Source: Planctomycetota bacterium
GTDB lineage: Bacteria > Planctomycetota > Planctomycetia > Isosphaerales > Isosphaeraceae
DNA: 64,000 nt
Reading direction: 5' to 3'
NCBI GenBank assembly: GCA_028291545.1
Contig: JAQGHR010000149.1
Coordinates: forward strand, 1-64,000
Part shown: positions 4,733 to 63,440 of the stretch, piece by piece
Layout: every line of letters begins with the position of its first letter
Position numbering within the stretch: position 1 is the first letter of the stretch
Position numbers and translations under genes: made by a program
Notes under the pieces: generated by a model
What the model saw: the letters and a program-made list of their open reading frames with translations, nothing else
Told to the model about the DNA's origin: nothing
Databases searched by the model: none

Positions 4733-7700
4733 TCAGTGTCGGTGCCTGCCGGAAGCCGCCACCGACTTCAGCGCGATGTCGTGGACGGCGTGCTTCGACG
4801 AGACCGCTGTGAAGGTCGTCCCCTGGTTCACGCGTGTGCGATGACGGCTTCCGGACCCTCGAAGGGCGTGCGTTGTCTCGTGGGGAACGAAGCCCGTGAT
4901 CTCGACGTGGGAAAGCGAGGCGGCGAGCGCCTGTCGGGCGTGGAGGCCCTTCCTCTTGATCGTGGCCGTGCCGGCGCCCACCCCGCTCTCACCCTGGGCG
5001 TCGGAGACGGCGACCACCACGTGATAAGTCCCCCGCCTCCGATACCGGTGGCTGCCCGAAACGACGAACGAGCCGTCGCTGGCGGCGCTGACGGTCCCGG
5101 CCGTCGCGGTCCCGTCTCCCCAGGAGATCGCCACGGAGAAATCTTTCGCGGTCCGCCCCGGAACGGGGTCGACGAACGTGGCGACAGTTCCCCTGAAGTT
5201 ACGGCCGGGGGCCTGGCTGATCGAGGTCGCGGAGACCACCGACTGGGGGGCGGGCGTAGGTGTAGGCGTGGGCGTGGGGATCGGCGTCTGGGCCGTGCTC
5301 TTGATCATGTAGATCGCGCCGTTGGAGAGCGACACGACGTACAGGTTGCCGTCCGGGCCGGTCTCGATGTCCGTCGCGATGCCGAAGTTCTTGCCGATCA
5401 CGAGGCTGTCGCTCTCGCCGGAGCCGAACTTGTAGTTGTTGTTGTCGACCTTGTCGGCCAGCTTCGGGTCGCTGAAGGCGAACTGGTCGCGAGACGCGTT
5501 GAATTTGAAGTCGAACAGGTAGCCGTTATCGAGGAACGTGCGTGATTCGCCGACGAACATGTCGCCCGCGTACTGCGCCCCCAGGCCCTTGCCGACGAAC
5601 CCAATGCCGGCCGGTGCCACGGCCCAGACCCAGCTGAATTGGGGATCTTCGTAATGGGACCCGGGGATCGTGAACAGGCGGGCGAGGGCCTCTTGCGGTG
5701 TGTCGGCCGAGTTCGCCGGGTTCCAGCGCACCTGCTGGGTCGCAGGGATGAACGAGGCGGGATCGGTCCCGCTGAACCCGAGGTTGCCCTGCACGGGGGT
5801 GAACGTGCTCTCGATCGCCTTGAACAATTCGAGCTCGGCGAGCGGCCCCATGAACTGAGTCCAGCCGCCGTTGGAGCCGGCCGTGACGCGGTTCAGCTCG
5901 TCGAAGGTGTCGTCGCCGTTCTCCGACTCCCAGAGGGAGCCCGTGATCGGGTCGAAGGCGAGGCCGAAGCCGTTGCGGCGGCCGTAGGAAAAGATCTTGT
6001 GAATGTTCGCCGTGACCTCGGCGAGCTGCGCATCCGTGAGGGTGACGCCGAACGCCTGTTCGAGGGCCGCAACCTGCGCCACGGTCACGCTGGCGAACGG
6101 GTTGTCGGTCGGCGTTGTGCCGTCGGGGTTGAGCCGAAGGATGACCCCGGTGAGGTGATTGTTGTCGGGCGCGGGTCCTCCGAACTGGTCGTCGGACTGG
6201 CCGTTCCCCTTCCACCCGGCGGGCAGGTTTTGCAACTGGCCCCGGCGACCGTTGTCGCCGATCATGATGTAGAGCTTGCCGTCGGGTCCGAACCGGATCT
6301 CGCCCGAATTGTGGTTGCCGCGTAGGGGTTCGGTCGCGTCCACGGGGTCGATGTTGTCTTGCTGAAAGGCGTGCAACTCGATCAGGTTCTTGTCGAACGT
6401 CAGCGTGTTCGCCTGCTCGTTCAGGATGAAGCGATCGACGCGGTTGCCGAGCGGCTTGACGGTCCCCGGCGGGAACGCCGAGTTGGCGTTCCCGACCTCG
6501 GAGAGCACGCCGGAGACCGCGCCGGTGCTACTCTCGGTCCAGTAGAGGTAGACGGCGTGGTTCGTCGCGAAGTTGGGGTCCAGGGCGACGCCGAGCAGGC
6601 CCCGCTCGGAGGCGTTGTTGACCGGCAGGTTGGGGAGTGTCGCCCCGGCCGGCGTGACGAACTGAATAGGGGTCGCGAGAGTCCCGTTCACGACGTGCTG
6701 GATCTTCCCGGAGGCCTTCTCCAGCACGATGAGGTCGCCCGCGCCCAGGAACGTCAAGTTGGTCGGCTGGTCGAGGCCGGTGACGACCGTGGTGACCGAG
6801 AGGTTCGGGTCGGTCATCACGGGTTGGGGCAACGGGGTCGTCGTCGGATTGAGGTTCAGGCTACCGAAGAGGCCGTCGTGCTCGTCGTTGGGTCCGGAGG
6901 TGAAGTAAAGCGTGTTGGGCGACGTGGATTGCACGCCGTCTCCGAACGAGAGCGCCCAGAGCCCGTCGTTCGTGATGGCCTTGCCGGTCGAGTCGCTGAG
7001 CTTGCCGAGGAAGGCGCCGCTGTCGAAATCAAAGGCGTTGATCGTGCCGTCACCGAAGTTGCCGACGAGCAGGGCGTTGTTGAAGTCGCCGTAACCCTGG
7101 ATGGGCGCCCAGGCCATTCCCCAGGGCGAGTTGAGCTGGCCCTGACTCGTGAATCGCTTGAGCAGGTGACCCTCGGTATCGAACACATCGATGAAGCCGT
7201 GCCCCGCGCCGCGAATGTCATCGTGCTTGGCCGCGTCCTGCTGGGCATAGGTGACGTAGAGGTCGCCGTTGATCGCCTGGATGCCGAACGGGGCATAGCC
7301 GGCCGGGATGCCCGTGTCGGTGAACGCGCCGGGGATCTTCACCGGGGCGAAGTTCCGGTCGAAGACGTCAACCGTGCCGGCATGGAAGTTCGTGGCGTAG
7401 AGATACGCGCCCGTGGGGTTGAACCCCTGCGCCAGGCCCTTATAGACGGCGCCCGACGCGGAATTGTCGGCGGCGATGAACGCATGGGTCAGGTCGACCG
7501 CGGCGCTCCAGCCGGCGATCGTGCCGTCCTCGGTCGCGAACAGGAAGTTGCTCGCCCCGGTCTTGCCGTTGGACGAGACGGTGAAGCCCTGCGTCGCGTT
7601 GGATACCTCTCCGGTCGGGGCCGACGTGCCCGTCCCGCTCGGCGTCGGGATGGAGACGATCAGAGGCGTCGCGGCCGGGAGCGGCTTCCCGTTGCCGTCG

Positions 7701-7960
7701 TAGACGGTCGCGGTCCCACTCCTATTGTTCGCGACCCAGAAGCCGCTGCCCAGGCCCAGCGCGAGGCCCCAGGGATTGACCAGGTTCGGGTCGGTCGTCT
7801 TGGCCATCCCGGCGATGTCGGACACGAGGTTCGTCTGCGTGAAGCCGGTGGCGAGCAGGAGCCGCACTTCCAGGGTCTCGACGCACGGCCGGTTCCGGCA
7901 CGGTCGTCGAGCAGGGGCGTGGAGGGGCTGCTGCCGAGATAGGCGATCGAAGCGTTTCAT
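4733..7960 (-). CDS. LEPR-XLL exported protein: TIGR03118-type propeller fused to a PQQ sugar dehydrogenase-like (GSDH) propeller and PKD tail
   Basis: A 1,075-residue exported protein. 'VETLEVRLLLAT' (residues 27-38) is a LEPR-XLL variant. Residues about 40-375 ('NPWGLALGLGSGFWVANN', 'GFIDVFDTEGHLLKRF') match the TIGR03118 family of secreted NHL-like proteins. Residues about 385-880 start with 'VTTVVTGLDQPTNLTFLGAG' and contain 'ERGLLGVALDPNFA' and 'GPDGKLYIMIGDNG', the pattern of glucose/sorbosone dehydrogenase-like PQQ propellers. A Pro-Thr linker ('PIPTPTPTPTPAP') leads to a PKD-like domain ('ISWGDGTATAG', 'VSGSHRYRRRGTY') and a basic C-terminal extension. Whether the second propeller binds PQQ and oxidises sugars cannot be judged from the sequence alone. 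The start codon ATG at 7960 has only a weak Shine-Dalgarno sequence. It neighbours two proteins with the same tail module. Confidence 0.82.
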   Translation of the reverse strand: MKRFDRLSRQQPLHAPARRPCRNRPCVETLEVRLLLATGFTQTNLVSDIAGMAKTTDPNLVNPWGLALGLGSGFWVANNRSGTATVYDGNGKPLPAATPLIVSIPTPSGTGTSAPTGEVSNATQGFTVSSNGKTGASNFLFATEDGTIAGWSAAVDLTHAFIAADNSASGAVYKGLAQGFNPTGAYLYATNFHAGTVDVFDRNFAPVKIPGAFTDTGIPAGYAPFGIQAINGDLYVTYAQQDAAKHDDIRGAGHGFIDVFDTEGHLLKRFTSQGQLNSPWGMAWAPIQGYGDFNNALLVGNFGDGTINAFDFDSGAFLGKLSDSTGKAITNDGLWALSFGDGVQSTSPNTLYFTSGPNDEHDGLFGSLNLNPTTTPLPQPVMTDPNLSVTTVVTGLDQPTNLTFLGAGDLIVLEKASGKIQHVVNGTLATPIQFVTPAGATLPNLPVNNASERGLLGVALDPNFATNHAVYLYWTESSTGAVSGVLSEVGNANSAFPPGTVKPLGNRVDRFILNEQANTLTFDKNLIELHAFQQDNIDPVDATEPLRGNHNSGEIRFGPDGKLYIMIGDNGRRGQLQNLPAGWKGNGQSDDQFGGPAPDNNHLTGVILRLNPDGTTPTDNPFASVTVAQVAALEQAFGVTLTDAQLAEVTANIHKIFSYGRRNGFGLAFDPITGSLWESENGDDTFDELNRVTAGSNGGWTQFMGPLAELELFKAIESTFTPVQGNLGFSGTDPASFIPATQQVRWNPANSADTPQEALARLFTIPGSHYEDPQFSWVWAVAPAGIGFVGKGLGAQYAGDMFVGESRTFLDNGYLFDFKFNASRDQFAFSDPKLADKVDNNNYKFGSGESDSLVIGKNFGIATDIETGPDGNLYVVSLSNGAIYMIKSTAQTPIPTPTPTPTPAPQSVVSATSISQAPGRNFRGTVATFVDPVPGRTAKDFSVAISWGDGTATAGTVSAASDGSFVVSGSHRYRRRGTYHVVVAVSDAQGESGVGAGTATIKRKGLHARQALAASLSHVEITGFVPHETTHALRGSGSRHRTRVNQGTTFTAVSSKHAVHDIALKSVAASGRHRH

Positions 7961-8036
7961 GTTGAGTCCCCGTATCGTGGGATATTCTTTTCCGTGAACG
8001 GCAAACGACAGCTTTCAAGAGGCCGATGGCTCCGGC

Positions 8037-8519
8037 CTACTTGCCAACTTGCACCTGATCCTGGCCGGCGATCGCCCAGCCCTGAGCGTCGCGGACTGTG
8101 ATGACCGCGCGGAACCAACCGGCGGCACCGTACGCATGGCTCCCGGAAACCGTATAGCGGCCGTTGCCGGTGCGGCGGTCGTGGCCGTCGGTCGAAGTGG
8201 TTCCATCGCCCCAAACGATCGTGGCAACGGTGATCGTCCCGGACGTCCCGCCCGCCATCCCGTTGGCGCTGCCCTTCCCATGAAACGAGCAGAAATAGGA
8301 GAATACTCCTGGCTTGATGAACCTGTGATCAAACGCGCAATTGGAGGTGAGTACGCCCGAATTCCGGGGTTCCATGCTGCCGCATTGCCAGGATCTCACA
8401 TTCCGATTCATTCCCGACGGTTCCATCGTGAACCAGCTTCCGGACAACAGCATTCCGGAAGGCACCGCCGCGATACCGCCCGGAGAGATCCATGGGGAGG
8501 CGGGATCCCGAGGCGACAA
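8037..8519 (-). pseudogene. Degenerate short paralogue of the cupredoxin/PKD-tail protein
   Basis: The open frame (160 codons from a TTG) has no LEPR-XLL motif or signal peptide. It begins inside a cupredoxin-like domain. 'NSGVLTSNCAFDH' and 'KPGVFSYFCSFHGKGSANGM' align with the 417-residue protein at 3394-4647 and keep Cys, His and Met copper-ligand positions. The first His region ('GTHSTT' there) reads 'GMNRNV' here. A PKD-like end follows ('IVWGDGTTSTDG', 'TGNGRYTVSGSHAYG', 'DAQGWAIAGQDQVQVGK') that resembles the tails of both neighbours. No convincing start codon or ribosome site was found. I read it as a 5'-truncated, decaying duplicate; a short functional protein is possible but less likely. 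Confidence 0.55.
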
Positions 8520-8821
8520 AGTATCGAGGGGTCAGCAGCACAGAGCCGACACGCCGGGAGGCCGGTTTTCGCATGCACGCGGAGGAGCAAAGGGAGTCTC
8601 GGTCAAGTACAAGCTGCATGCAGAGGCCCGGTCGGTTGGAGAATTCCCCGGAATGGGGGTTTATTTCTCCAACCGTGAGACCGTCCCCGTCCCCGAGGTC
8701 ATCCCGCCAAGAACGCAATCACGCCGTCACGGGATGGAGCTCAGGGTGGTGTCGATCAGGAGCCGATCAGTGCGCCGGACGACCGCCCGGCCCGGGCCGG
8801 ACGGTCTGACCGGACTCAGCT
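8520..8821. other. Intergenic gap without a supported gene
   Basis: About 300 bases between the degenerate cupredoxin frame and the stop codon of the protease gene. Open frames here on either strand lack codon structure, homology-like motifs and ribosome sites. Part of it could be the decayed 5' end of the 8037-8519 paralogue, but no LEPR-XLL-like or cupredoxin start could be read. Confidence 0.5.
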
Positions 8822-10693
8822 CTACTTCCGCACCTTGATCTTGCACGGGTGAAGGACTTCGAGCCCGGCCGGATCGGTGATTGCCACCACGGCCGTGACG
8901 TCCCCCTCGGGGGAGGTTGGCGGAACGGTCCAGGTCAGCTCGCCGGATGGCCCTAAGGGATTGATCTGGATACCACCGTCGCGCAACCCGTACGCGATCC
9001 TTGAGCCGTCGGGCGAAAAGGCGACGGACATCGCACCGATCGCGCGATCGTATCCCATCGCGACCGTTTGAGCCCCCGACCTGAGGTCCCAGAGCCGTGC
9101 CGTGCCGTCGTCCGAAGCCGAGAGGACAAGCGCGCCATCGGGCGAGACCGCGGCGTCCTGGACAATGCCCGTGTGACCCTTGAACTTGCGGAACTCGCCG
9201 AGCGGCACGGGTTCGTCGGCCGAAGACAGGGCCTCACCCATGGCTAGCTCGGGCGGGCGGACCGATTCGCCCGCGCGGCGAGCCCCGATCCCCTTGGACC
9301 CGAGATCACCGCCGATGTTGAGCAACCGCTCTTCGGTCCCGGGACCGCGAGGCGGGGCGGCCACTTCGTTGTATACCTCGCCCTTGCCCTGAGGCACGCC
9401 CCCGGCGGCCGGCGACCCGCTAAAGGTATGTTGCAGCGTCTTGGTTCCCATCACGATCGTGCCCTTCTTGACCACGATGGTGGCCTCCAGCGACAGGACC
9501 ACCTCGCGAGGCCGGACCTGGACCGACGACGATCGGCCCAGGTCGACCATGTACGTGGCCTTGTCCGCCGTCAGGCGTGCCGGGGCGAGCCCCGTGATCG
9601 GCCCGGAGAGCACCTTCCCGTCGGCCAGGGTCACGCCGGGGGACGGGGCGCGGATGAGCGATCGCACATCGCCGAGCCGGATCTCCTTGCCGCCGACCTG
9701 GAACGCCTGGTCGGCCAGTTTCCCCTCGAACGCCTGGCCGCCGAGGCGGACGAGCGCGTTGAGCCGTTGATCCGGCTCGGCGGGGACCGGGACGACCGTC
9801 GCCGTGTAGGCCCCGCCTCCCTGCGATTTGGCCACAAAGCTGCGTTGCGGCCCGGTCCCGGCCGTCACCTTGATGGCGACTGCGAGATTGTCCGAGGTCC
9901 CGGCCACGCCCGGCCGGAGTACCGAGATCGTCCAGTCCACGGGCTTCGAGCGGTCGAGGTAGTCGATCGGCGGCGGGTCGAAGACGATGATCGGCCGCTT
10001 CAGATAATCGGCGAGCACGCCGACCGGGATGGCGAAGTTGATCCCCGCCGCCCCGTTCAGCTTGGCGACGATGACCCCGACCACGCGGCCCCCGGCGCCG
10101 AGCACCGGCCCTCCCGAGTTGCCGGGGTTCACGTCGCCGTCGAGCTGGATCAGGCCGAGCTTTCCCCCCACTTTGCGGAGCGATGTGATGTGCCCCCGAT
10201 TCACGCTGATGGACGGGTACTGGTCCGCCGGAGCCAGGACCCCGCCGAAGGGGAAGCCGAAGAACGCGACCTCCATCGTCAGCGAGAGATCCTTGTCCTG
10301 TCCCAGAGATAGCGGCGAGAGGCCGGGGATCGGGTCGATTTTGAGCAGCGCCAGATCGTTCTCCACATCCATATCGAGGATGCGGGCTTTCACGACCCGC
10401 TCCGTCTTCTCACCCCCGTCAAGAACCAACGTCACGACCTTGGCCCCGCTCGTGACGGCGGGCTCAACGACGTGGGCGTTGGTCACGAACAGGCCACCGA
10501 CATCCACGCAGAACGCCGAGCCGAACGCCCTGCCCCCCGGCAACGGGATCTCGATTAGCGCGGTCGCCTTCACGCCCCTGGCTACGGAATCCGCAACACC
10601 CGCACCCTTCTTCTGGGCAGAGGCCGACGGAGGGAAAGTCACCAAGACGACGAGCCCTATCAATAAACCGATACGGGAATGAATTTTTGACAA
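8822..10693 (-). CDS. Exported trypsin-like (S1C/DegP-type) serine protease with C-terminal WD40 repeats
   Basis: A 623-residue protein if translation starts at the TTG at 10693, which has GAGAAGGG upstream and gives a clear signal peptide ('RIGLLIGLVVLVTFPPSASA'). The ORF-track start 34 codons upstream gives an unlikely leader. The protease domain shows all three catalytic positions: His in 'LFVTNAHVV', Asp in 'DMDVENDLALLKI' and Ser in 'GDVNPGNSGGPVLG'. The middle region (about 250-470) is of unknown fold. The C-terminus has at least one WD40-like repeat pair ('GHTGIVQDAAVSPDGALVLS', 'DDGTARLWDLRSG', 'VAFSPDGSRIAYGLRDG'). No PDZ domain was recognised, which separates it from classical DegP. 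A periplasmic or surface quality-control or signalling role is inferred. Confidence 0.83.
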   Translation of the reverse strand: MSKIHSRIGLLIGLVVLVTFPPSASAQKKGAGVADSVARGVKATALIEIPLPGGRAFGSAFCVDVGGLFVTNAHVVEPAVTSGAKVVTLVLDGGEKTERVVKARILDMDVENDLALLKIDPIPGLSPLSLGQDKDLSLTMEVAFFGFPFGGVLAPADQYPSISVNRGHITSLRKVGGKLGLIQLDGDVNPGNSGGPVLGAGGRVVGVIVAKLNGAAGINFAIPVGVLADYLKRPIIVFDPPPIDYLDRSKPVDWTISVLRPGVAGTSDNLAVAIKVTAGTGPQRSFVAKSQGGGAYTATVVPVPAEPDQRLNALVRLGGQAFEGKLADQAFQVGGKEIRLGDVRSLIRAPSPGVTLADGKVLSGPITGLAPARLTADKATYMVDLGRSSSVQVRPREVVLSLEATIVVKKGTIVMGTKTLQHTFSGSPAAGGVPQGKGEVYNEVAAPPRGPGTEERLLNIGGDLGSKGIGARRAGESVRPPELAMGEALSSADEPVPLGEFRKFKGHTGIVQDAAVSPDGALVLSASDDGTARLWDLRSGAQTVAMGYDRAIGAMSVAFSPDGSRIAYGLRDGGIQINPLGPSGELTWTVPPTSPEGDVTAVVAITDPAGLEVLHPCKIKVRK

Positions 10694-54267: not shown

Positions 54268-55350
54268 TCAATAATCGCTGGCCGAGACGATCTCATTGCC
54301 GGCCGCGGAGATCAGCTTACGGAGCACGAGGAGGTCGAGCGATTCCTTGAGGAATTTGACGGAACCGTCACCGAACAGGGCGTTTGCGCCACCGGGGTGG
54401 TACGAGAACGCTTCCTGGTTTGCGCCCGCCTGGTTGGTGGTGCCGAAGGCCGGGTCGCCGGGCTGGGGGTACGGGGTGTTGGCGTGCATGGGGCGCGACT
54501 GATTGTTGATCCGGCCGGAGATGCCCAGGCCGGTCCCGTTGGGCTCGCCCCAGCGCCAGGCCCGGCGCTGGCCGGGAGGGACGGGACGGGTGACGTTCGG
54601 CAGGGTCGGCGAGACGTAGGACTCGGGCCGCTCGCTGACGTAGCTGGCGTCGCGGCCGGCATCTTCGATCACCATGATCGTGCCGCTGAGCCCGTCGAGA
54701 ACGTCCGCGATCCGGGTCACGGGGTGGTGCAGAAGTCCATCGACGCGGGACGCCCGGTTGCGGTAGGGGGTGATCGCCGTGGCGCCGGTCTGGCCGGTTC
54801 GCAACTGGGGGTCGATATCCACGTAGGTCGTCGCCGCATAATCGTTGACGCCGTATCCCGGCCCGGCCAGCTCGAACGGGGCGCCGTTCGGATCGCCGGT
54901 GGCGTCACGGCCGCCGCCCGGGTTGCGTACCGCACTGGGGCAGAGGAAGGCGCTGACGACCGACGAGTAGCCCGTGTAATTCACGCCCGAGATGTGGTTG
55001 TAGTCCTCGAAGCTGAAGTTGATCGCGTTGTAGACGTTCGTCTGCTCCAGGAACGGCAGGATGCGGGCATGGATGCCGGTGCCATCGACGTACATCGTGT
55101 CGGGGACCGGGATGTTGTACAGCGAGCCCTGGCCGGGGATGGGGAAGCTACCGTAGGCCGACTCGTAATTGTGCAGTGCCAGGCCGATCTGCTTCAGGTT
55201 ATTGGTGCACTGGGCGCGGCGGGCGGCCTCGCGGGCGGCCTGGACGGCCGGCAACAGCAGGGCGATCAGCACGCCGATGATCGCGATCACGACCAGCAGC
55301 TCGATCAGGGTAAATCCGCGTCGTCGCGTACGAACCGGGAACGAAACCAT
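54268..55350 (-). CDS. DUF1559 prepilin-like protein 1
   Basis: A 360-residue planctomycete surface protein. It opens with a type IV prepilin-like signal '[20 protein letters not shown]' (cleavage after Gly12, Glu at +5) and the conserved '[20 protein letters not shown]'. The C-terminus has the family's H-X9-DG motif in '[18 protein letters not shown]' and ends 'NEIVSASDY'. The middle region is variable and probably surface-exposed. GAGGAG precedes the ATG. The gene is downstream of a small lipoprotein gene and is followed by a strong terminator. Its first 110 or so bases are nearly all identical to those of the paralogue at 56326-57432. Confidence 0.95.
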   Translation of the reverse strand: MVSFPVRTRRRGFTLIELLVVIAIIGVLIALLLPAVQAAREAARRAQCTNNLKQIGLALHNYESAYGSFPIPGQGSLYNIPVPDTMYVDGTGIHARILPFLEQTNVYNAINFSFEDYNHISGVNYTGYSSVVSAFLCPSAVRNPGGGRDATGDPNGAPFELAGPGYGVNDYAATTYVDIDPQLRTGQTGATAITPYRNRASRVDGLLHHPVTRIADVLDGLSGTIMVIEDAGRDASYVSERPESYVSPTLPNVTRPVPPGQRRAWRWGEPNGTGLGISGRINNQSRPMHANTPYPQPGDPAFGTTNQAGANQEAFSYHPGGANALFGDGSVKFLKESLDLLVLRKLISAAGNEIVSASDY

Positions 55351-56325: not shown

Positions 56326-57432
56326 TCAGAAGTCGCTCGCGGAGACGATTTCGTTGCCGCTCATCGAGACGCACTTGCGGATGATGACGACGTTGGTGGA
56401 ATCCTTGAGGAACTTCACCGAGCCGTCGCCGAACAGGGCGTTGGCGCCACCGGGATGGAAGGAGAAGATCTCGTCATTGGCCCCGGCGTTGTTGCCCTTC
56501 AGGGCCAGGCCATTCTGGTCGACGGTGGCGGGGTCGGGGTACTGGCTCAGGCCGCACATGGGGCGATACTTGTTGTTGATCCCGCCGGAGACGCCGAAGG
56601 CGCTATCGGCCTCGGCCCAGCGCCAGTAACGGCGGTTGCCGGCGGGGTAACCGGCCGGGTCCTGGGTCGGTCGCGTGTTCACGCCATCGTAGTAGCCTTC
56701 CGCGTAGGGGCTGAGGAAGCGGGCGTCGCGGCCGGCGTCCTCGGCGATGGCGATGGTGTTGGAGAGCCCGTCGGTGCATTCGGAGAGTCGCGTGTAACCC
56801 TGCTTCAGAAGGCCATTCACGCGGGAGAGCTTGTTGCGGTAGGGGACGACGATGTTCGAGCCTGAACCACCGCTCTGACCGAGGGGGTCGATATCGGTGT
56901 AGCAGGTCGGGCCGTAGTCCTGAACGCCGTAGCCGACGGCCTCGAAGGCCGAGGCATTGGGGTCACCCGCCACGGTGTCGCGACCGCTGGTCGGCTGGCG
57001 GACCGAGCTGGGGCAGATGAACGAGGAGATCGTCGAGCTGTACGCGGTGATGTTGGCCCCGGAGAGGCTGTTGTACTCGAGGCTGAAGTTGATGGCGCTG
57101 TAGACCGTGCCGCCCTCGATGTACTGGAGCAGGCGGGGGAACACACCGACGCCGTCAACGAACTGGGTCGAGGGCGGGGCGGTGTTGAAGTTGGTCGACT
57201 CGCCGGCCGGGGGGAAGCAGCTGTACGTGCTCTCGTAATTGTGCAGCGCCAGGCCCATCTGCTTGAGATTGTTGGTGCACTGGGCGCGGCGGGCGGCCTC
57301 GCGGGCGGCCTGGACGGCCGGCAACAGCAGGGCGATCAGCACGCCGATGATCGCGATCACGACCAGCAGCTCGATCAGGGTAAAGCCCCTGGGGATCGAG
57401 CGATTCAGTGTCGCCTTGCGGGGAGCGGACAT
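56326..57432 (-). CDS. DUF1559 prepilin-like protein 2
   Basis: A 368-residue paralogue of the protein at 54268-55350. It has the same prepilin-type start '[19 protein letters not shown]', '[20 protein letters not shown]' and the H-X9-DG C-terminus '[18 protein letters not shown]', ending 'NEIVSASDF'. The central 250 residues differ. I chose the ATG at 57432 (begins '[13 protein letters not shown]'); the ORF-track start adds 13 codons. A lipoprotein gene precedes it by 70 bases on the same strand and an intrinsic terminator follows. Confidence 0.95.
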
Positions 57433-57502
57433 CGTCGGGAGGCCTTTCTCAAAGGGAGGATCTGCATACAAGAACGTGTGGGGACATCCGAGGTCGCTCG
57501 GA

Positions 57503-58741: not shown

Positions 58742-59935
58742 ATGTCGAGTCCGGATCGTCCGCATCAACCCGACGACGCGGCCCGGCCCGCCGAGTCGTC
58801 CTCGTTGATGCGCTGGCTGATCGCGTCGGCGATCATTGTCCTGCTGGCCGTCGGCGTCGGTATCGGCGTGACGATGCTGCCCACGGAGGAAGGCAACAGC
58901 CTCACGTACAAGATTCCCACCAAGCCCAAAGGTCCGCCGGGCAAGGTGGTGCTGTCGGAAGACGCGACTTACAAGTTTGACGTCATGCCCCAGAACACCA
59001 AGGGGAGCCACCCCTGGAAGTTCACCAACGGCGGCGTTGGCGACCTGGAGCTGAGCCTGGGCCCTCATGACTGTTCCTGCACGATCGCGAATCTGCCCGA
59101 TGAGAAATCGCACTACACGCTGAAGCCCAACGAGACGATCGAGGTCAAGCTGACCTGGGATACCAAGGTCTTCGACGGGAAATTCCGCAAGACGGCCACG
59201 ATCAACGTCCTGGGTGACCCCGAGCGCGAACAGGTGGTCTTCGCCGTCGACGGCACGATCAAGCCGGCCGTGACGGTCGCCCCGCCGGAGCGCATCATCG
59301 CGTTTGGCTCGTTCCCGAACGACCAGTCGGTGAAGGGGGAGTTCGCGATCGGTTCGGCCGACAAGCCCGACCTCAAGATCCTCTCGCTGACGTCGAGCCG
59401 GCCCGAGGAGATCGTCTTGACGCTCAGCCCCCTGTCCGAACAGCAACGCCAGTCGGCCGGGTGGACGTCGATGAAGGGCGGCCATCTCATCCAGGTCGAG
59501 GTCAAGCCCTCCAAGAGCCTCGGCCCGTTCGGCGAGGAGGTCATCGCGACGACCGATCACCCGCTGGTGAAGGAGATTCGGCTCAGCGTGAGCGGCAAGC
59601 GTGTCGGCCCGATCGCCGTCGTGCCCGAGACCGCGCGCATGCATCAAGTGAACTCCGCCGAAGGTGCCGCCACCACCGTGATGATCACCGTCCGCAATGC
59701 GCCGGAAACGAAGTTTGAAGTGCTCGAAGTCCCCGATTACTTGAAGGTGGAGATCACGCCGGCCGATGTTAAAGTCGGGTCCGCCGCCAAGATCCGCCAA
59801 TACCGGATGACCGTCACCGTGCCCCCCGAGACCCCCGCGGGGAAGATCGAGGGGGCGATCGTCCTGAAGTCGGACCATCCCCTGGCGGACCGGGTCAAGA
59901 TTCCGGTGGAGATCACCGTGCTCAGCGGGCAATAA
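58742..59935 (+). CDS. Membrane-anchored DUF1573 protein
   Basis: A 397-residue protein with one N-terminal TM helix ('LIASAIIVLLAVGVGIGVTML') and an extracytoplasmic region of Ig-like modules. The first is a DUF1573 domain ('HPWKFTNGGVGDLELSLG', 'CSCTIANLPDEKSHYTLKPNETIEVKLTWDTK'), with its paired cysteines in 'HDCSCT'. Later modules contain 'SVKGEFAIGSADKPDLKI' and 'FGEEVIATTDHPLVKEIRLSVSG', ending 'KSDHPLADRVKIPVEITVL'. GGAGGAG lies before the ATG. The multihaem cytochrome lipoprotein gene follows 188 bases downstream on the same strand. A structural or redox-adaptor role is a guess. Confidence 0.88.
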   Translation: MSSPDRPHQPDDAARPAESSSLMRWLIASAIIVLLAVGVGIGVTMLPTEEGNSLTYKIPTKPKGPPGKVVLSEDATYKFDVMPQNTKGSHPWKFTNGGVGDLELSLGPHDCSCTIANLPDEKSHYTLKPNETIEVKLTWDTKVFDGKFRKTATINVLGDPEREQVVFAVDGTIKPAVTVAPPERIIAFGSFPNDQSVKGEFAIGSADKPDLKILSLTSSRPEEIVLTLSPLSEQQRQSAGWTSMKGGHLIQVEVKPSKSLGPFGEEVIATTDHPLVKEIRLSVSGKRVGPIAVVPETARMHQVNSAEGAATTVMITVRNAPETKFEVLEVPDYLKVEITPADVKVGSAAKIRQYRMTVTVPPETPAGKIEGAIVLKSDHPLADRVKIPVEITVLSGQ

Positions 59936-60123
59936 GGACGAGCGGGCGGGCGGACACCAGAATCGGTCGGATTTGAGGGCCTCGGTTCGAGATCGTGAAG
60001 ACGGGTTAGGTCAAGACGGGCCTGAGTCACCCGATCTCCAATCGCGGACGTCGGATTTCGAAAAGGCCCGGGATCGAAGTCTGGCCTGCCAGAGTTCGAC
60101 CCCGGGTGGCTCGAAGGAACGAG

Positions 60124-61743
60124 ATGACGATGATCATGCGCCGAACCTCGAACTGGCCTGCCGCGGTCGCCGTGGGCCTGTCGCTGGCGACCCTCATCGT
60201 CGTCGGCTGCACAGGGAAGACCCCGCCGGCCGCCGCCGTGCCCGGCGGCGGTGCCGAGGCAGATACCACGGGGAGCCGGCCGGCCGAGGCCGACGCCAAG
60301 CCGCTGGCGAATTTCCCCGACGACCTCGCCGGAGTCCTGCTCATCTCCGGTGAGATGGTGGGCTATACCGAGCCTTGCGGTTGCACGGCCGGGCAGAAGG
60401 GCGGCCTGATCCGTCGCCTGGCCTTCACCGACCTCCTGCGCACCGAGCGCAAGTGGCCGCTCGCGCTGATCGACCTGGGCAGCCTCATCAACGACCCGCA
60501 TAAGCACGGCGGGCCGGAGCAAACGAAGATCAAGTTCGACACGTCCTTGAAAGCCCTCACGAAGCTCCAGTATTCGGCCATCGCCCTCAGCGCCGAGGAT
60601 CTCAAGCTCGGCGTGGACGAGACCCTCATGCGGTTCTTGAACACCCTGCCCGACGGCCCGGACGCCCCCAAGGTGGTCGTGGCCAACGTCACGCCGGTGG
60701 ACGGGTTTGGCTTCGAGAAGCGTATCCGGCCGAGCATTCGCACCGCCGTCGGACCCCTCAAGATCGGCGTGACGGCCGTGCTCGACCCCGAGGCGTTCGC
60801 CAGGATCAAGGACGACGCCAAGGACAACCTGCTGACCGTTCAAGCCCCGGAGAAGGCTGCCGAATTGGCGCTTGCCGACCTGGAAAAGGACACCGATCTT
60901 CAAATCCTGATGGTCCAGGGCCCCGTGGAAATGGCCCGGCGGCTGGGCCTGGCGAATCCGGGGTTCGACATCGTGGTCGCGACCTCCGATTTCGTCGATC
61001 CCAAGGACAAGCCCGAGACCCTCAACGGCGGGCGAACCTGGCTCGTCAGCGTCGGCCGCAAGGGCCAATACATCGGCGCCGTCGGCCTGCCCAGGGACCT
61101 GAAGAAGCCGAAACTGTATCAGCGCATCACCCTCGCCCCTCGGTTCGACCGCTACAAGGGCCGCGCGGAGGAGATGCGCAAGCTGATCGACGAGGAGTTC
61201 GTCGCCGACCTGAAGTCGGCCGACGTCCTGGCGAAATACATCAAGATCCCCTATTCCCACGGCACCGTGACAAGCAACGCCACCTACGTGGGCGCGGAGA
61301 CCTGCAAGGGCTGCCATCCCAACACGTACAATAAATGGCAATCCACCCAGCACGCCCACGCGTACGAATCGCTCACGAAGGACCCCAAGCGGAATCGCGA
61401 GGCCGACGCCGATTGCGTCCGCTGCCACACCACGGGGTTCGAGTTCATCGGCGGGTTCACGACCGCGGAAACCACTCCGTTCCTCAAGGGCAACCAGTGC
61501 GAGAACTGTCACGGCCCCGGCTCGGCTCACGCCGCCTCGCCCGACGATCCGGCCATTCGCAAGAGCATCGCCCGTACCGCCGAGGAGTTCCGCAAGAGCG
61601 ACACCGGCTGCATCAATTGCCACGACGAGGATAACTCCCCGCACGGATTCGATTTCCCCGTGATGTGGAGCAAGATCATGCACAGGGGTCTCGACGATAT
61701 GAAGGACCCCAAGGTGCATCAGGGCGTCAAGGTCGCCCGGTGA
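60124..61743 (+). CDS. Lipoprotein fusing a UshA/5'-nucleotidase-like domain to a multihaem cytochrome c domain
   Basis: A 539-residue lipoprotein from the ATG at 60124 (GAAGGAACGAG upstream), with lipobox 'LIVVGC'. Residues about 75-370 resemble the UshA-like metallophosphatase family that begins with 'GYTEPCGCTAGQKGGLIRR', with 'ALIDLGSLINDPHKHG' next. The C-terminal 150 residues carry four CxxCH haem sites: 'CKGCH', 'CVRCH', 'CENCH' and 'CINCH', a cytochrome c554-like arrangement with distal His candidates ('TQHAHAYESL', 'GPGSAHAA', 'KIMHRG'). It would be an envelope electron-transfer protein. The GTG at 60106 is an alternative start. It follows the DUF1573 gene on the same strand. Confidence 0.87.
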   Translation: MTMIMRRTSNWPAAVAVGLSLATLIVVGCTGKTPPAAAVPGGGAEADTTGSRPAEADAKPLANFPDDLAGVLLISGEMVGYTEPCGCTAGQKGGLIRRLAFTDLLRTERKWPLALIDLGSLINDPHKHGGPEQTKIKFDTSLKALTKLQYSAIALSAEDLKLGVDETLMRFLNTLPDGPDAPKVVVANVTPVDGFGFEKRIRPSIRTAVGPLKIGVTAVLDPEAFARIKDDAKDNLLTVQAPEKAAELALADLEKDTDLQILMVQGPVEMARRLGLANPGFDIVVATSDFVDPKDKPETLNGGRTWLVSVGRKGQYIGAVGLPRDLKKPKLYQRITLAPRFDRYKGRAEEMRKLIDEEFVADLKSADVLAKYIKIPYSHGTVTSNATYVGAETCKGCHPNTYNKWQSTQHAHAYESLTKDPKRNREADADCVRCHTTGFEFIGGFTTAETTPFLKGNQCENCHGPGSAHAASPDDPAIRKSIARTAEEFRKSDTGCINCHDEDNSPHGFDFPVMWSKIMHRGLDDMKDPKVHQGVKVAR

Positions 61744-61748
61744 GAGCA

Positions 61749-61837
61749 ATTCGAGAACGCAGATTCGAGAGGCGAGACCAGGGAATAACGAGGTCGCACG
61801 GTCTCGAACCTTCACTCTCGAATCTCCGATCTCGAAT
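61749..61837. repeat. Palindromic element of the GATTCGAGAT family (family C, copy 3)
   Basis: ATTCGAGAACGCAGATTCGA (61749 on) pairs with TCGAATCTCCGATCTCGAAT (ending 61837) with a few mismatches, around an interior that ends in the GGCGAGACC/GGTCTCGAACC pair. It is directly downstream of the cytochrome gene stop and may act as a terminator. Confidence 0.7.
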
Positions 61838-61923: not shown

Positions 61924-62253
61924 ATGGCCACCGCCGCGCCCGCATCCAAGTTTGAGGCGCTCGTCGCCAAGTATCGGGTCGATCACACCCATCCGGTCAA
62001 CCACGTGATGCATATCGGCGTCGGCTGGCCGATGGTCGCCGCGGCGCTGTTGCTCCTGCCGTTCAAGCCGCTCTGGTCGGTCGCCCTCATCCTCGGCGGC
62101 TATGCGGTCATGTTCACCGGTCACTTCGTGTTCGAGAAGAACACCCCCACGATTCTCAAGCATCCGAGCACCCCGTTCGTGATGGCCTGGTCGGTGATCC
62201 GCGGGCTTTGCGGCGGCCTCGCGCGCCTGGCAACAGGCGGTCGGGGGCGGTAA
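61924..62253 (+). CDS. DUF962/Mpo1-like membrane protein
   Basis: A 109-residue protein. 'YRVDHTHPVNHVMHIGVGWPMVAAALLLL' and 'GHFVFEKNTPTILKHPSTPF' match the DUF962 (Mpo1/YGL010w-like) family, whose conserved His residues may bind iron; yeast Mpo1 is a dioxygenase acting on 2-hydroxy fatty acids. Two or three hydrophobic helices are present. GGAG precedes the ATG. It is followed 52 bases later by the Uma2 gene. Confidence 0.88.
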   Translation: MATAAPASKFEALVAKYRVDHTHPVNHVMHIGVGWPMVAAALLLLPFKPLWSVALILGGYAVMFTGHFVFEKNTPTILKHPSTPFVMAWSVIRGLCGGLARLATGGRGR

Positions 62254-62995: not shown

Positions 62996-63107
62996 AGGGT
63001 AGACGCCCGTTCAGAGTCTGGCTTGACAGGGCCGGCTTGGCGCAGCTAGGATGCCGTGGTCCCGTCCTCACGACCGATCCGCCGACCACGACCGAGGCTT
63101 GCGTCTG

Positions 63108-63440
63108 ATGGCCGACCCGATCACGTATGACGACTTCGCCAAGCTGGAACTCCGGGTCGCCAAGGTGCTGGACGCCCGCCCGCATCCGAATGCGGATAAG
63201 CTCTTGCTGCTCCAGATCGACGTCGGCGGCGAGACCAAACAGATCGTCGCCGGGATTCGCGCCCATTACACGCCCGAGCAGCTCGTGGGCAAGCTCATCG
63301 TCGTCGTGAATAACCTCGCCCCCGCGATGCTGCGCGGCGAGACGTCCAACGGAATGCTCCTGGCCGCCACCTCGGGCGAGAAGGTCGTCCTCCTCATGCC
63401 CGATGACCCGGAGTGCGTCCCGGGGGCGAAGATCAAGTAG
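63108..63440 (+). CDS. Stand-alone tRNA-binding-domain protein (EMAP-II/MetRS C-terminal-like)
   Basis: A 110-residue OB-fold protein. 'YDDFAKLELRVAKVLDARPHPNADKLLLLQIDVGG', 'RQIVAGI'-like 'KQIVAGIRAHYTPEQLVGK' and 'SNGMLLAAT' match the tRNA-binding domain appended to bacterial methionyl-tRNA synthetase and to Arc1p/EMAP-II. Here it is free-standing, like CsaA or split MetRS beta subunits. I start at the ATG at 63108, which begins the conserved region; the ORF-track start is 19 codons longer. No metG is in this window. Confidence 0.88.
   Translation: MADPITYDDFAKLELRVAKVLDARPHPNADKLLLLQIDVGGETKQIVAGIRAHYTPEQLVGKLIVVVNNLAPAMLRGETSNGMLLAATSGEKVVLLMPDDPECVPGAKIK

Follow-up and report, generated by a model that had tools for sequence, protein, structure and literature searches.

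Lists of prokaryotic selenoproteins include a UshA-like family with a CxU motif and DUF1573 with a UGC or UxC motif, and give no function for either (PMC2398784, PMC9312934, PMC13188914). In the window, by which we mean the whole 64,000-nucleotide stretch of planctomycete DNA that was analyzed, relatives of these two families are encoded side by side: on one strand, a DUF1573 gene is followed after 188 bp by a gene for a predicted lipoprotein with a UshA-like head and a tetraheme tail (Table 1). The lipoprotein matches the NCBIfam model NF041198, "UshA-like (seleno)protein," across head and tail (E = 6.3e-56, 190 bits; the curated cutoff of 275 is not reached), and it has the traits of that family: a PCG(U/C) motif, a UshA-fold head, and a C-terminal multiheme region (profile positions 397 to 518). 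Relatives from Scalindua (L124, 282.3 bits) and from genome G083 (358.5 bits) bridge the distance to the model. The window protein, whose head falls in or next to this known but uncharacterized family, represents a divergent, Cys-containing clade.

The open literature that we searched, in which DUF1573 itself is scarcely mentioned, yielded no description of a DUF1573/UshA-like pairing. As far as that literature shows, the family is already known, and the pairing, the fusion, and the loss of the metal site are undescribed. The newer points are the strong linkage and fusion to DUF1573, the selenocysteine (Sec) forms within Planctomycetota, and the Cys pair that replaces the metal site. Both families have stood in lists without a function for well over a decade; the linkage and a natural fusion indicate that they work together.

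Architecture, metal site, and cysteine pair

A preliminary description of this DNA, made from the sequence, proposed that an exported lipoprotein joins a 5'-nucleotidase-like head to a c554-like tail with four CxxCH motifs, next to a DUF1573 gene. The open reading frame, the Pfam matches, and the structure model bear this out. Searched as a single sequence, the head has no match to a Pfam nucleotidase domain. However, combining 39 homologues into a profile brings out matches to 5'-nucleotidases of solved structure (E = 1e-17 to 1e-15), and 5'-nucleotidases are the top Foldseek matches (2z1a, E = 8.9e-16; 1ush, E = 5.9e-14) of an AlphaFold model built on 86 homologues (pLDDT 94.7, pTM 0.93). 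The C-terminal substrate-binding domain of UshA is missing, and the cytochrome tail is in its place. This architecture is not due to chance, since there is a homologue in 58 of 59 related genomes and since a pattern built solely on the cytochrome part fetched 80 homologues, every one of which has PCGC. We set aside an antisense reading frame of 692 amino acids (59737 to 61815), which resembles a high-GC shadow of the two genes.

Table 1. Features of the DUF1573-lipoprotein gene pair, in window coordinates
Feature	Position	Strand	Basis
DUF1573 gene, 397 aa; one membrane helix at the N terminus followed by Ig-like domains; proposed partner with a Cys pair	58742..59935	+	PF07610, 40.9 bits (gathering score 26.1); AlphaFold
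CxC motif of DUF1573 protein, Cys111-Ser-Cys113	59072..59080	+	Both Cys unchanged in an alignment of 43 partners
Lipoprotein gene, UshA-like head and tetraheme tail, 539 aa	60124..61743	+	ORF from ATG; profile matches; AlphaFold model
Signal peptide and lipobox VVGC, lipidated Cys29 predicted	60124..60210	+	Sequence; GC consensus here in homologues
5'-Nucleotidase-fold head without metal ligands, about residues 66-365	60319..61218	+	Profile and structure matches; ligand alignment
PCGC motif, residues 84-87	60373..60384	+	CGC invariant (86/86); relatives L193-L196 have Sec (TGA) for the second Cys
Cytochrome c554-like tail	61276..61743	+	PF13435 (Cytochrome_C554), 62.6 bits (gathering score 20.8); 39-homologue profile to PDB 1bvb (c554), E 2.5e-24
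Heme site 1, CKGCH, 394-398	61303..61317	+	Invariant in homologues
His410, candidate distal heme ligand	61351..61353	+	86/86 homologues
Heme site 2, CVRCH, 431-435; candidate open-coordination heme	61414..61428	+	Invariant; no assigned partner His; inferred from c554
Heme site 3, CENCH, 459-463	61498..61512	+	Invariant in homologues
His469, candidate distal heme ligand	61528..61530	+	86/86 homologues
Heme site 4, CINCH, 496-500	61609..61623	+	Invariant in homologues
His520, candidate distal heme ligand	61681..61683	+	85/86 homologues

As a reference for the two-metal site (D-x-H, D, N-H, H, and H-x-H), we took L202, L203, and L206, canonical nucleotidases that also come from Planctomycetota. 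When aligned to these, the window lipoprotein keeps none of the seven ligands: it has Glu77 and Val79 at D-x-H, Ser120 in place of the motif II Asp, Ala157-Glu158 at Asn-His, Gln265 where motif IV has its His, and a motif V devoid of His. Nor is any of the seven positions conserved over the 86 homologues. By contrast, Cys85, Gly86, and Cys87 are invariant in all 86, which are 24 to 54% identical. These residues lie in the segment EPCGCTAGQKGG (residues 83 to 94, including EPCGC), and alignments with 2z1a and with the canonical nucleotidases place PCGC directly behind the old metal loop. Across the 86 homologues, no conserved His or Met accompanies it within the head. Part of the metal set survives in some relatives: Scalindua proteins retain Asp in motif II, His in motif IV, and one of the His in motif V, and a Sec form (L193) retains Asp in motif II together with His in motifs III to V. 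Judging from these alignments, erosion of the metal site runs through the family but spares the Cys pair.

In three relatives (L197, at 492 to 1916, L198, and L201), CDC or CAC takes the place of CGC. One of them exceeds the NF041198 cutoff, with 358.5 bits, so the glycine of PCGC is not obligatory. In a tree of the heads, which leaves out these three, the fusion and Sec lineages fall on the side of the canonical nucleotidases; this split has weak support (83/86) and the rooting is by midpoint, so the tree is only suggestive as to the order in which metal ligands might have been lost.

In four planctomycete genomes (G105, G143, G078, and G160), a tandem copy of the gene has an in-frame TGA at the second Cys (EPCG-U-PKRKIKLGSLSRR), and SelB is above its cutoff in all four. 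We assign the TGA to Sec because it lies at the homologous codon, because it recurs in four genomes, and because of SelB. A search for a SECIS element after the TGA found a short recurring stem (CGGCA-GTY-TGTCG) whose energy is not clearly below that of shuffled sequences (z = -1.3 to +1.5). The replacement of Cys by Sec usually signals a redox-active residue. The Sec relatives thus strengthen the redox reading of the preliminary description; its novelty is lower than it seemed, as it had missed that the head already belongs to a named family, NF041198.

The tandem Sec and Cys copies (L193, at 6401 to 9316, and likewise L194, L195, and L196) adjoin a short ECF-sigma-factor-like gene and an anti-sigma-zinc-finger-like gene, and a TraT-like lipoprotein gene lies downstream of the pair at L193. 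SelB is also matched at full length, and above the cutoff, in the genome from which the window comes (338.9 bits; G000:C23:173653-175536), which suggests that this organism can make selenoproteins; the codon in its lipoprotein gene, however, is TGC (Cys).

Linkage and fusion to DUF1573

We surveyed 127 nonredundant loci, of which 124 could be assessed (they had either enough flanking sequence or a match). DUF1573 is adjacent or fused in 97 of the 124: it lies directly upstream in 94, directly downstream in 1, and is fused in 2. It lies within 2.5 kb at another 2 loci and was not found at 25. Adjacency by chance is negligible, since the four genomes that we counted have just 2 to 11 DUF1573 matches each. 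The linked loci are spread across planctomycete classes, including Scalindua and similar genomes and one Phycisphaerae genome, and there is also one from Armatimonadota. The fusions are two reading frames from G083 (L199, 5441 to 8170, and L200, 5440 to 8511) that hold DUF1573 domains, the head, and Cytochrome_C554 in a single frame; L199 scores 109.7 on OS_HP2 (cutoff 100) and 262.6 on UshA_like_PCGU. The partner is not obligatory, as none lies within reach at those 25 loci and it was not found at the Sec-form loci (L193 to L196).

The AlphaFold model of the window's DUF1573 protein (pLDDT 91.7) matches Ig-like folds. Its Cys pair is invariant across the aligned partners, and several other partners, including those of the Gemmatales type, have CxxC. 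More broadly, 82 of the 97 partner reading frames that we checked have a CxC pattern; the remainder include CxxC forms, truncated reading frames, and a few without a recognizable Cys pair (L108, L148, and L152). The evidence from promoter-like and terminator-like matches is weak: one of the former precedes the DUF1573 gene, none separates the two genes, and none of the latter turned up.

Family members are also found in Armatimonadota. Across the phylum Planctomycetota, 70 of the 109 genomes sampled have a family match at 1e-15, though some of these matches are canonical nucleotidases, such as the three used as references. The PCGC-heme protein is present in nearly every planctomycete of the class Planctomycetia, nearly always paired or fused with DUF1573.

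The neighborhoods did not reveal a shared pathway: genes beyond DUF1573 vary between families, so DUF1573 is the only informative neighbor. Several planctomycete families (L043, L046, L066, L051, and similar loci) keep the order Glycos_transf_4, Wzy_C (O-antigen ligase), DUF1573, and PCGC-cytochrome. Glycogen-type genes are close to the members from Scalindua and similar genomes. In the window, an Mpo1-like gene and a tRNA-binding gene (61924 to 62253 and 63051 to 63440) follow the pair; among the other 40 loci, 17 have a homologue of the former nearby and 13 one of the latter, and this synteny seems to be specific to the window's family. The window also encodes two related proteins with prepilin-like N termini (54268 to 55350 and 56326 to 57471), and close to each of them is a small gene for a predicted lipoprotein. 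A paralogous set has DUF4159 and VWA-type genes as neighbors. Finally, a subfamily of shorter PCGC-cytochromes (L151, L154, and L155, including Blastopirellula marina) lacks DUF1573; at L155, a DUF4159 gene lies ahead of the PCGC-cytochrome and behind VWA-type- or membrane-protein-like genes. This subfamily probably uses a different set of partners.

The tetraheme tail and the proposed redox chemistry

Seven His residues in the tail are invariant or nearly so: the four of the CxxCH motifs and the three candidate distal ligands. By analogy with cytochrome c554, this fits three bis-His hemes and one open heme. In c554, one of the hemes is five-coordinate.

The preliminary description had read the Cys-rich motif and the hemes as a hint of redox chemistry rather than simple phosphatase action. 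The conserved DUF1573 neighbor and the loss of the phosphatase site now support this reading. We think it somewhat probable that the two proteins form an exported redox pair, in which a head that carries a Cys or Sec pair and is joined to a tetraheme relay works with DUF1573, whose own Cys pair is its counterpart. A 5'-nucleotidase would have had its active-site loop rebuilt, with the metal ligands gone and Cys-Gly-Cys (Cys-Gly-Sec in some relatives) in the old metal-binding loop. The Cys pair of the head would then exchange electrons, or Cys-bound sulfur or selenium cargo, with the CxC or CxxC pair of the Ig-fold DUF1573 protein, and the c554-like tail would relay electrons one at a time to or from the periplasmic respiratory chain. 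Dithiol chemistry involves two electrons and hemes carry one, so an intermediate needs to be stabilized. The analysis establishes the domain layout, the missing metal ligands, the invariant Cys pairs, the Sec forms, and the linkage and fusion; that the two Cys pairs meet, that the hemes serve them, and the direction and substrate are what we infer.

For the direction, we prefer thiol oxidation, with electrons passing from thiols into the hemes. We lean this way because, of the 23 genomes tested that carry the protein or its family, all 23 lack DsbB and 16 lack VKOR. However, VKOR is matched in the genome that the window comes from, so a role as the sole oxidase is unsupported in this organism and the argument for thiol oxidation is weak. 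If the proposal is true, a major phylum would have in this pair a core redox system of its envelope, nearly universal in Planctomycetia, where most of the sampled genomes lack DsbB and VKOR. It also suggests a testable chemistry: a Cys or Sec pair that took shape in a defunct phosphatase site and is connected to hemes.

Alternatively, the Cys pairs could be metal sites (for Cu(I), Hg, or Zn, for example), and the module would handle or reduce a metal or metalloid instead of protein thiols. CxC and CxxC pairs are common ligands for soft metals, and the partner's CxC sits on an Ig-like fold, which is able to carry copper. Several of the other listed families of prokaryotic selenoproteins are related to mercury or other metals (PMC9312934). 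On the other hand, the surveyed neighborhoods have no recurring genes for metal resistance or transport, the PCGC motif lacks an accompanying conserved His or Met in the head, and near-universal presence in a class favors a core function over resistance. We consider a metal site unlikely.

Returning to the redox pair, its broadest version is that DUF1573 and the PCGC/PCGU cytochrome make up one thiol/selenol-to-heme oxidoreductase system, which would unite two orphan selenoprotein families and stand in for DsbB and VKOR in oxidizing exported protein thiols in many Planctomycetota. We regard this full claim as rather unlikely.

A sulfur module like Sox is also a candidate: the DUF1573 Cys would carry sulfur as SoxYZ does, the head would act as SoxB, and the hemes would accept electrons. 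SoxYZ is Ig-like with a Cys-borne substrate and SoxB is of the UshA family. Also, the SoxB model (TIGR04486) is matched by 29 of the 86 members (best E = 3.5e-23) and by the fusion L199 (E = 9.9e-27), but the matches listed are far under the curated cutoff of 550, and the window protein has no match listed at E up to 1. SoxB requires the dimetal site that is lost here, and no sulfur-oxidation genes recur in the surveyed neighborhoods, which makes this reading quite unlikely.

The Cys pairs might instead be static disulfides in a protein with a structural role or a role in heme-protein assembly, with the tail as an ordinary electron carrier. Structural disulfides are frequent in exported proteins and a CxC disulfide is possible, but Sec would not be expected to replace a Cys in a purely structural disulfide, and both CxC motifs come from families with Sec members (PMC13188914). 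This seems improbable. Least probable by our estimate is that the protein still works as a hydrolase, whether 5'-nucleotidase or phosphoesterase, through a degenerate site, and that the hemes are incidental: the fold and the long-range sequence similarity agree with 5'-nucleotidases and some relatives have a partial metal set (four of the motifs in one Sec form), but the window protein has no first-shell metal ligand, the positions are unconserved in its relatives, and a cytochrome replaces the C-terminal domain of UshA.

Comparison with known systems

The head shares the metallophosphatase fold of 5'-nucleotidase/UshA and SoxB, and differs from them in lacking both the metal ligands and the C-terminal nucleotidase domain and in having PCGC behind the old metal loop. 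The tail resembles cytochrome c554 of Nitrosomonas (1bvb, PF13435) in sequence, in its four heme motifs, and in three extra conserved His. Whereas that protein is free-standing and takes part in hydroxylamine oxidation, the window's tail is fused to the head, and we saw no hydroxylamine oxidoreductase context around the PCGC-cytochrome gene. The Sox system (SoxYZ, SoxB, and cytochromes) is an analogy for how the parts might work, with its Ig-fold Cys carrier, UshA-fold partner, and c-type hemes; the window protein, which is missing the dimetal site of SoxB, is not a member of it.

The closest systems are the two selenoprotein families. Compared to the "PCGU" proteins of NF041198, the window protein has Cys for Sec, has lost the metal ligands entirely, and scores below the cutoff, but it shares the head fold, the position of the motif, and the fused c554-like tail. 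Similarly, its DUF1573 partner has Cys rather than Sec and scores 24.4 bits against OS_HP2 (NF041425), under the cutoff of 100, but it shares with DUF1573/OS_HP2 (PF07610, NF041425) the Ig-like domains and a CxC motif like the UGC or UxC that is listed for that family.
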